From contig JAODTK010004888.1 in assembly GCA_026419785.1 (NCBI GenBank), positions 434,001 through 498,000 on the forward strand: 64,000 bases of DNA, read 5' to 3'. Shown piece after piece: positions 4,347 through 7,300 of this stretch (position 1 is the first letter of the stretch; each line of letters starts with the position of its first letter). Below the pieces are notes generated by a model, which saw only the letters and a program-made list of their open reading frames with translations, did no database searches and had not been told where the DNA came from. The position numbers were made by a program, and so were the translations under genes. Source of the DNA: Sclerodactyla briareus (lineage: Eukaryota > Echinodermata > Holothuroidea > Dendrochirotida > Sclerodactylidae).

Positions 4347-7300
4347 TGTTGTGGAAGAAGAATATGTTCAGATTATGCACCTTTTCCGTTCACAAAAGCC
4401 CCCTACCGCCTTTTGAGTTCATAATGCTGATTGCTGATGATTTTCCCTATAATTCAATATATCACACTCATCATCTCTACTCGCTGCTGGGCATTTTCGA
4501 ACAAGTGCTGAGTTACGAAAGGATTTTCAGAAGCAGAAAACTTTGGTCTAAACTTTAATCAAGGTACCCAAAATAGTAAAATTCATTAAAACAAAAAGGT
4601 ATAAAACACACAAAATAACACTATGAATAAATCCCCCCTTCGGGACAATGCAATGTTGCCCAAATGAAATGTTGGGCATCTCAGATTTTCTGGCTAATTG
4701 ACCATGGACTTGGTAAGCGAAATTGAAAGAGAAAGTTTAGATAGATGGATAATATTGGACAATTTTGAGAGATATGGTTGCCTCCGATGAGAGGGGTTAC
4801 GGGAAAAAGCAAGCACGTTACTGTGGCAGAATGGTTGGATCATGTTAAGCAAATGAGTTTACATGCTGTGTGTTGCTTCCAACATCAATACAGGTCCTCT
4901 CCTACTCGCTGCCATGTGGTACTCAATACTCATCTTATGTCATCTTCTATGCTGGAGCTCCCTTCATCAGTATGAAGGTCAATGCAAGTACTAGCTAGGT
5001 GAACACCCAACCCGTACCTTATAGTCAATTGTTCTTAATCTGGTCCATATACCAGGGATGGAGTGGGGTATGGCAATCCCACACACTGGCCATGTGGCAT
5101 GGAGCTAGCCACCAGCCAAACCCCTTATAGTGCCTATCATTCCTTTCCCCTCATAGTGCCTACCATTCTATTGTTGTCAGCTAGTCAGTGCTAACTCCAA
5201 CACCACCCCCCATAATGCCTACCATTCAATTGTTCTTAGCTTGTCAGTGCTAACTCCAACACCACCCCCCATAATGCCTACCATTCAAATGTTCTTAGCT
5301 TGTCAGTGCTAACTCCAACACCACCCCCCATAATGCCTACCATTCAATGTTCTTAGCTTGTCAGTGCTAACTCCAACACCACCCCCCATAATGCCTACCA
5401 TTCTATTGTTCTTAGCTAGCCAGTGCTAACTCCAACACTACCCCTCATAATGCCTACCATTCTATGTTCTTAGCTAGTCAGTGCTAACTCCAACACTACC
5501 CCTCATAATGCCTACCGTTCTATTGTTTTTTAGCTTGTCAGTGCTAACTCCAAAACCACCCCTCATAATGCCTACCATTCAATTGTTCTTAGCTTGTCAG
5601 TGCTACTCCAACAACTCCACCCCTCATAGTGCCTACCATTCAATTGTTCTTAGCTAGCCAGTGCTAACTCCAACACCACCCCCCATAATGCCTACCATTC
5701 AATTGTTCTTAGCTTGTCAGTGCTAACTCCAACACCACCCCCCATAATGCCTACCATTCAATTGTTCTTAGCTAGTCAGTGCTAACTCCAACACCACCCC
5801 TCATAGTGCCTACCATTCTATTGTTCTTAGCTAGCCAGGGCTAACCCCAACACTATCCCTCAAAGTGCCTACAATTTCATTGTTCTCACCTGGTCAGTAT
5901 ACCAGTAGTATGGGGTGGGCCATTCTATTGTTCTTACCTGGTCAGTATACCAGTAGTATGGGGTGGGCCCTTCTATTGTTCTTACCTGATCGGTATACTA
6001 GTAGTATGGGGTGGGCCATTCTATTGTTCTTACCTGGTCAGTATACCAGTAGTATGGGGTGGGCCATTCTATTGTTCTTACCTGGTCGGTATACCAGTAG
6101 TATGGGGTGGGCCATTCTATTGTTCTTACCTGGTCAGTATACCAGTGGTATGGGGTGGGCCCAAAAAAATTTTGTTTTTTCTATTGTTCTTACCTGGTCG
6201 GTATACCAGTAGTATGGGGTGGGCCAGTCTATTGTTCTTACCTGGTCAGTATACCAGTAGTAATGGGGTGGGCCATTCTATTGTTCTTACCTGGTCGGTA
6301 TACCAGTAGTAATGGGGTGGGCCATTCTATTGTTCTTACCTGGTCGGTATACCAGTAGTATGGGGTGGGCCATTCTATTGTTCTTACCTGGTCGGTTATA
6401 CCAGTAGTATGGGGTGGGATCAATTCCCTCCCTCTTGTAACCAGCCATCAGTTCCTCATAGTCCCCAGATCCAATTGACCCACCAACAATCTCACCACGT
6501 TGGGTAGTAGAGAATCGAACTGAGAACAAGGGATGCTATGATGAACGCGTTCAATGGGTGCTCAAGCAGAGTTATTTCATTATGAATTAACGGTCCATTC
6601 GAACCTATGTTTCATGTCCTCTTTTTCCAGCCACAAAAGCTACCTATACTATGGAAAATCTATTGTCACTAACTGATACAAGGACTAGTTTTTTAATTGA
6701 CAAAAAAATCAGTTAAACGGAGTCTTAGGTCAAAACTCATAATTTTGTGGATAGGTCCTTGGCAATTGTAGACTTTGTTTTGCAAAGCCACTATTTTCTT
6801 TCAATTCTTGGACTGATCACCATTACCCTCAGTGATATTGATGATTGAGTCTGTACTTTTGACTGAAATGCTTGTAGATGAGGTATCGAAATTATTGCTT
6901 TCAGTTCCAATATAATGCATGCCTATTTCTTCTCGAATTTTCAAAGGCTGAATGGAACTCTTCGATTCACAAAGTTTGCAAAAATTGTAGATTATTGATA
7001 GACAATCAATGCATTAAAATACCACCCTGATAAAAAGGAACCACCTTCATTATCATTCAATCTATTCTGTATGAAGATGAGGTCACTCAATCATCTGAGC
7101 AGGATCCACACCCCCCTCCTAGATGACCTATGACCTTATTTTTCAACAGCTCCCTCCCAGATCATTACCATTGTCATAACATAACATTGCCTACCTTCAT
7201 GACAATCCTCCAATCTATTCCATAGGATCCTCTCGACTGATCAAATCAAATGCCAAAATCGACCCCTAGATGCCTTCCACAAAACCTCAATTCCTGTCCT

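Follow-up and report, generated by a model that had tools for sequence, protein, structure and literature searches.

What becomes of a splice donor that a minisatellite has multiplied, and do the copies serve the protein or simply travel with the intron? The question is raised by the gene NARS1 in the window (the whole 64-kb stretch of DNA analysed, part of contig C2509), where the second-last coding exon is followed on the minus strand by eleven 5' splice sites in tandem. The array is a real exon-boundary minisatellite and a new locus of a phenomenon published as the 'mirage', with the anatomical features we looked for all present. Our best explanation, to which we give roughly three chances in four, is that this is a near-neutral mirage, in which a boundary duplication has expanded, the first donor is used productively and the array is removed with the intron. 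We found no direct evidence of a functional role for the array, and the frame argument for such a role was overstated. Eleven near-identical natural donors in an essential gene, together with the sister arrays described below, nevertheless constitute a ready-made test of donor choice, and of the ways in which minisatellites at exon boundaries may be tolerated, become part of exons or act as seeds of new introns.

Anatomy and history of the NARS1 donor array

The preliminary description of this DNA held that a minisatellite with a unit of about 48 bases, copying the exon end, the donor and the start of the intron, has multiplied the NARS1 donor, and that all copies keep GT in a good consensus. 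All of this is borne out: the eleven donors lie at the positions given in Table 1, the unit consists of 30 bp of exon end and 18 bp of intron, and GT is kept in 11/11 donors, ten of which read CAG/GTAAGAAC (slash, splice junction) and the last CAG/GTGAGAAC. Tandem Repeats Finder (TRF) calls the array at 5879-6418 with period 48 and 10.9 copies, and CAGGTAAGAAC occurs ten times on the minus strand of the window and never on the plus strand, compared to about 0.03 expected from base composition. In order from the exon, the units measure 48, 49, 49, 48, 64, 48, 48, 48, 48 and 48 bp, the two 49-bp units each carrying one extra T. Short tandem units thus span the exon-intron boundary of a real gene and the splice signal is present in many copies, as in a mirage.

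Table 1. Features of the NARS1 locus (positions in the window) and of sister donor arrays on other contigs
Feature	Position	Strand	Description
Last coding exon of NARS1	4218..4344	-	ends in RCTP and stop; three single-base deletions; acceptor seemingly one base short
Relic of 48-bp unit	5025..5067	-	degenerate, donor lost; beyond the 59-bp array
59-bp minisatellite	5147..5888	-	adjoins the 48-bp array; 27-bp block in common with the 48-bp unit
Donor minisatellite	5882..6387	-	ten units span 6387-5890; ten further donors, 6339 to 5889
Unit with in-frame stop	5986..6033	-	TGG to TAG
64-bp unit	6130..6193	-	16-bp A/T-rich insertion shifting the frame
Donor 1	6380..6387	-	exon's own 5' splice site, GTAAGAAC; from sequence, alignment and U1 duplex
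First bases of the eleven donors	6387 (exon's own), 6339, 6290, 6241, 6193, 6129, 6081, 6033, 5985, 5937, 5889	-	
Second-last coding exon of NARS1	6388..6519	-	frameshift-aware alignment to human NARS1, apparent indels read through
MRPL9 array	C2492:75800-79600		39 bp x 24, multiplies exon donor; consensus unit (GKSVKVILLEDVP) open and 3n from the exon
Titin-like FN3 array	C3139:56800-60200		60 bp x 8, copies exon end and donor; read-on from the exon stops at once
C1626a and C1626b arrays	C1626, about 21.5 and 29.5 kb		long, ~8 kb apart; common 35-bp donor unit
Beta-spectrin array	C2234, around 168678		64-bp minisatellite multiplying exon donor

The array does not stand alone. In the block that the adjoining 59-bp minisatellite has in common with the 48-bp unit, 24/27 positions are identical (alignment score 39, where 1000 shuffles reach at most 23), although the donor GT is replaced by CT in 12/12 of the 59-bp copies listed, and the relic read from 5067 to 5025 aligns with a score of 42 (maximum again 23 in 1000 shuffles). 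These alignments show that the three repeat stretches are related in sequence, and the existence of a 59-bp array and a relic that have both lost the donor implies that the 48-bp repeat is older than its tidy units suggest. The family would have originated in a tandem duplication that took in the last 30 bp of the second-last exon and the first 18 bp of the intron, which may then have grown to about ten units via slippage or unequal exchange; one branch would have lost the donor GT and given rise to the 59-bp array, leaving a degraded copy farther out.

All eleven donors are near-equal in predicted pairing with the U1 5' end, at -11.1 to -11.4 kcal/mol. The duplex of the exon's own donor (-11.3 kcal/mol) is the second strongest among ten NARS1 donors, the nine others ranging from -5.1 to -11.6. 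The suggestion that the array is a buffered splice site found no clear support, and the donors show no sign of special conservation: changes at donor positions number 0/80 over the ten full units (1/88 including the eleventh donor) compared to 10/480 overall, where about 1.7 would be expected, so that the counts are no more than expected of a young array and we dropped selection on the donors as an explanation. We also dropped a hairpin that hides the donors, since the unit folds weakly (z of -1.83, -0.95 and -1.78 for three short pieces). The z for a 561-nt stretch is -1.86, 2/100 shuffles folding equally well; two of the short folds leave GUAAG free of pairing, and the third pairs GGUA.

We infer that productive splicing starts from the first donor, and that the array is a near-neutral passenger removed together with the intron. 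If later donors give rise to any transcripts, most of these would be out of frame, meet a stop or acquire inserted residues beside the catalytic core. The near-equality of the eleven donors in U1 pairing counts against this explanation, in which use of the first donor is itself a deduction, as does the outcome of classical tests, in which the intron-proximal of duplicated donors is often preferred.

Published mirages and related repeats

The original Adh mirage paper is reportedly that of Canestro in 2002. In the portions available of two later papers (PMC3087553, PMC3902484), mirages are minisatellite-like tandem duplications of exon-intron boundaries in amphioxus, present in Adh3, troponin C (named there through citation), the globins BflGb6 and BflGb9, and PGBD5, and are reported to leave normal splicing undisturbed. 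PGBD5 was added by PMC3902484, where, in the same portions, a gene model had taken the boundary repeats for an exon and the authors set that model aside. The NARS1 array resembles these cases in its short tandem units across a boundary, many with AG/GT signals, in an otherwise ordinary gene, and its 48-bp unit falls within the 10-72 bp of the Adh3 mirage units. It differs in that the genes affected here (NARS1, and also MRPL9, beta-spectrin and others) are new to the phenomenon and are known from genomic sequence alone. The published hosts are cephalochordates; family searches of this genome for GFP and COX1 gave no match, but Tektin, expected in any ciliated animal, gave none either, so that these searches carry no information on the host group.

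Two further bodies of work are relevant. According to the accessible text of PMC3629103 and PMC4974935, introns may be gained by tandem duplication of AGGT segments (the Rogers model), with 24-nt repeats in fission yeast and a potato RdRp as examples. As in those cases, the tandem copies at NARS1 carry splice-site letters and could in principle supply new splice sites, but there a copied segment became a new intron, whereas here the start of an existing intron is multiplied. In human segmental-duplication paralogs, boundary minisatellites may alter splicing or form introns, and transcripts that keep the repeat were found in 66% of the intron changes made by such repeats, as far as the accessible part of PMC2812944 states; these are recent human paralogs with transcript data, whereas the NARS1 array is read from the genome.

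An amphioxus VCBP paper, one of three whose text was partly available (PMC8724738, PMC2632668, PMC2206037), describes intronic partial exons that bear splice sites; the word 'mirage' is absent from the available text of all three. No NARS1 case appears in the titles and opening abstract lines listed for minisatellites at splice sites, in searches that did not name NARS1.

Recurrence at other exon ends

The genome (319 Mb in 3171 contigs) was searched for sets of three donors close to consensus and spaced as in an array, and the flanks of the matches were then read by eye. This gave 19 distinct arrays of at least three donors, NARS1 included, two of which (C1626a and C1626b) have a common unit. 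Twelve of the 19 were placed by eye at an exon end, in that each begins where a stretch that is open and has an acceptor-like start comes to its end, and copies that end together with the donor. The remaining seven were not so placed, although one lies downstream of an ELOF1-like exon and another starts ~90 to 100 nt past an exon-like stretch.

Homology supports four of the 12 exons, and the other eight were called by reading frame alone. In addition to NARS1 (below), these four are MRPL9 (PDB E 5.6e-4; below the Pfam cut-off, no NCBIfam match), beta-spectrin (PDB E 1.2e-10; below the Pfam cut-off) and a titin-like FN3 exon (PDB E 4.1e-7, several domains taken together; below the Pfam cut-off, no NCBIfam match). 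The exons of C1968, C2285 and C3091 have no match in Pfam or PDB, and those of C1626b, C3019, C2735 and C77 none in Pfam. The same exon-end anatomy is therefore shown to recur in this genome, four times with homology support and eight times by frame. We claim recurrence and not a bias towards donors: matches to the donor pattern and to its mirror image, counted as matches and not as arrays, numbered 20 and 17, 21 and 37, and 30 and 44 in three genome searches, and since the mirror gives more in two of the three, a genome-wide excess of donors in arrays was dropped.

The first copy has its GT in nine of the 12 exon-end arrays and lacks it, as printed, in C1626a, C1626b and beta-spectrin, where a later donor would thus have to serve unless the loss is an assembly error. 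At beta-spectrin, the GTAAGTC of later copies corresponds to GAAGTC in the first (GGAGCTCAG/GAAGTC), which is one T shorter, and as printed the exon frame stays open across one whole unit (EVILQRKHVSIQRDLTALGAQ, 21 residues) up to an intact GTAAGT. A repeat unit may thus have been absorbed into the exon, or the missing T may be an error of a kind plausible in an indel-rich assembly. The two C1626 arrays each follow a similar short exon-like stretch, and reflect duplication either of a gene segment or in the assembly.

Unit lengths in the 11 exon-end families are 48, 39, 51, 60, 35, 48 (some 53), 41, 46, 66 or 67, 64 and 74 bp. In the four exon-end arrays examined first, every unit length was a multiple of three, but in the enlarged set only five or six of the 11 families are (P 0.29 or 0.12), and frame-preserving selection was dropped. 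Of eight families tested, two (NARS1 and MRPL9) have a unit of 3n length that also stays open in the exon frame, C77, C2234 and C2735 being outside this test.

Reading frame, assembly and the fate of the later donors

The preliminary description spoke of eleven in-frame donors, the later of which would add 16-residue blocks without breaking the frame. The consensus 48-bp unit is indeed open in the exon frame for 16 codons, but the printed units include two of 49 bp, one of 64 bp and one with a TAG, and an extra base in the exon copy itself (TATAACC in place of TATACC, giving YNRP instead of YTDQ) puts even the first donor out of frame. Relative to the exon's own donor, the later donors add 48, 97, 146, 194, 258, 306, 354, 402, 450 and 498 nt; from donor 6129 onward the added length is again a multiple of three, but by then the frame has already crossed stops. 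As printed, only donor 6339, one of ten, gives a clean open extension of 16 residues, and the claim for the later donors thus fails, although apparent assembly indels could hide more. We regard the 3n unit length at NARS1 as probably a coincidence.

How far the printed sequence can be trusted is best judged from the gene as a whole. In a model derived from frameshift-aware alignment to human NARS1, the gene lies on the minus strand, its exons convincing from ~31.3 kb down to 4.2 kb and its 5' exons, which reach 35.9 kb, less certain; the peptide of the second-last exon, with its last residues set to YTDQ in the query, matches human AsnRS in PDB (E 1.6e-14). Exons that read clean include those at 27.1, 12.1 and 9.9 kb, but single-base frameshifts occur in those near 31.3, 26.0, 18.5, 13.5, 6.5 and 4.3 kb; the protein is conserved in the stretches that separate the indels, and the MRPL9 exon, on another contig, likewise reads through only if an indel is allowed. 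Six exon-level NARS1 matches, all on C2509, came from a genome-wide protein search, and longer DNA searches return the locus once each. Frameshifts along the only NARS1 copy found, in a protein that is otherwise conserved, point to an indel-prone assembly and not to decay, and several irregularities of the array and its exon, among them the additional base of the exon copy, are probably assembly errors. Indels per base are, however, fewer in the NARS1 array than in the two flanking exons, so that one uniform error rate cannot explain everything. At 11198-11220 a further NARS1 exon end, GCGGGGGGG before GTAAGAG, has three extra codons (AGG) compared to human, which is either a homopolymer error or a real insertion.

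An assembly with so many indels might have produced the array, or its number of units, by mis-assembly, and the homopolymer-rich insert in the 64-bp unit and the recovery of the locus in single copy, leaving no second allele for comparison, could be read in this way. We think this improbable, as an error of sequencing or assembly is unlikely to have generated units with both common and private substitutions, next to a relic and a sister array that has diverged, and similar arrays lie on other contigs.

We put no higher odds on a broader alternative, in which minisatellites repeatedly multiply the donors of essential genes in this genome and the copies do feed the protein. NARS1 and MRPL9 would then produce minor ladders from later donors (repeats of 16 and 13 residues, with a maximum length that tracks array length between individuals), and beta-spectrin would have absorbed its 21-residue unit after the first donor lost a base. 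The open unit at beta-spectrin and the human transcripts that retain boundary repeats (accessible part of PMC2812944) lean in this direction and against the idea of a mere passenger.

Slightly less credible again is a system for length variation at NARS1 itself, as had been suggested, in which later donors are used appreciably and yield AsnRS isoforms with 16-residue blocks. The donors are intact and strong, the consensus unit is open in the exon frame with the same open 3n pattern at MRPL9, the beta-spectrin frame is open through its unit beside a first donor printed without its T, and human boundary repeats are often retained in transcripts, as far as the available text of PMC2812944 goes. 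The suggestion nevertheless gains no clear support from our results: one later NARS1 donor is clean as printed, a 3n bias is not clear over the 11 array families, and amphioxus mirages are reported to be spliced normally in the available portions of PMC3087553 and PMC3902484. The protein itself also argues against it. Residues added by later donors would sit between YTDQ and RKYG, a junction that we take to precede motif 3 of AsnRS, and no insertion occurs at this point in 16/16 prokaryotic AsnRS loci, nor in the five alignments listed (three of them human) out of 28 matched PDB sequences.

About as doubtful as length variation is the proposal that this gene copy is a decaying pseudogene in which the array is irrelevant: several frameshifts fall in the last two coding exons, but it is the only NARS1 found in the genome, the protein is conserved between the indels and the donor of the second-last exon is intact. 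Least credible is recursive splicing, in which stepwise removal of units could regenerate a donor at each CAG/GTAAG joint. Every unit can be read directly to start with GT and end with CAG, but in the consensus unit only 55% of the 20 nt leading up to the final CAG are pyrimidines, without forming a tract, and an animal intron of 48 nt would be very short. The preferred explanation thus remains a boundary minisatellite that is spliced out from the first donor.

Elsewhere in the window, a 21/42-bp tandem array of short palindromes (consensus beginning AGTGGAATTGAATTCCACTTA) occupies 61815-62293, and open stretches at 59459-60370, read by eye, resemble the tail of a LINE reverse transcriptase.
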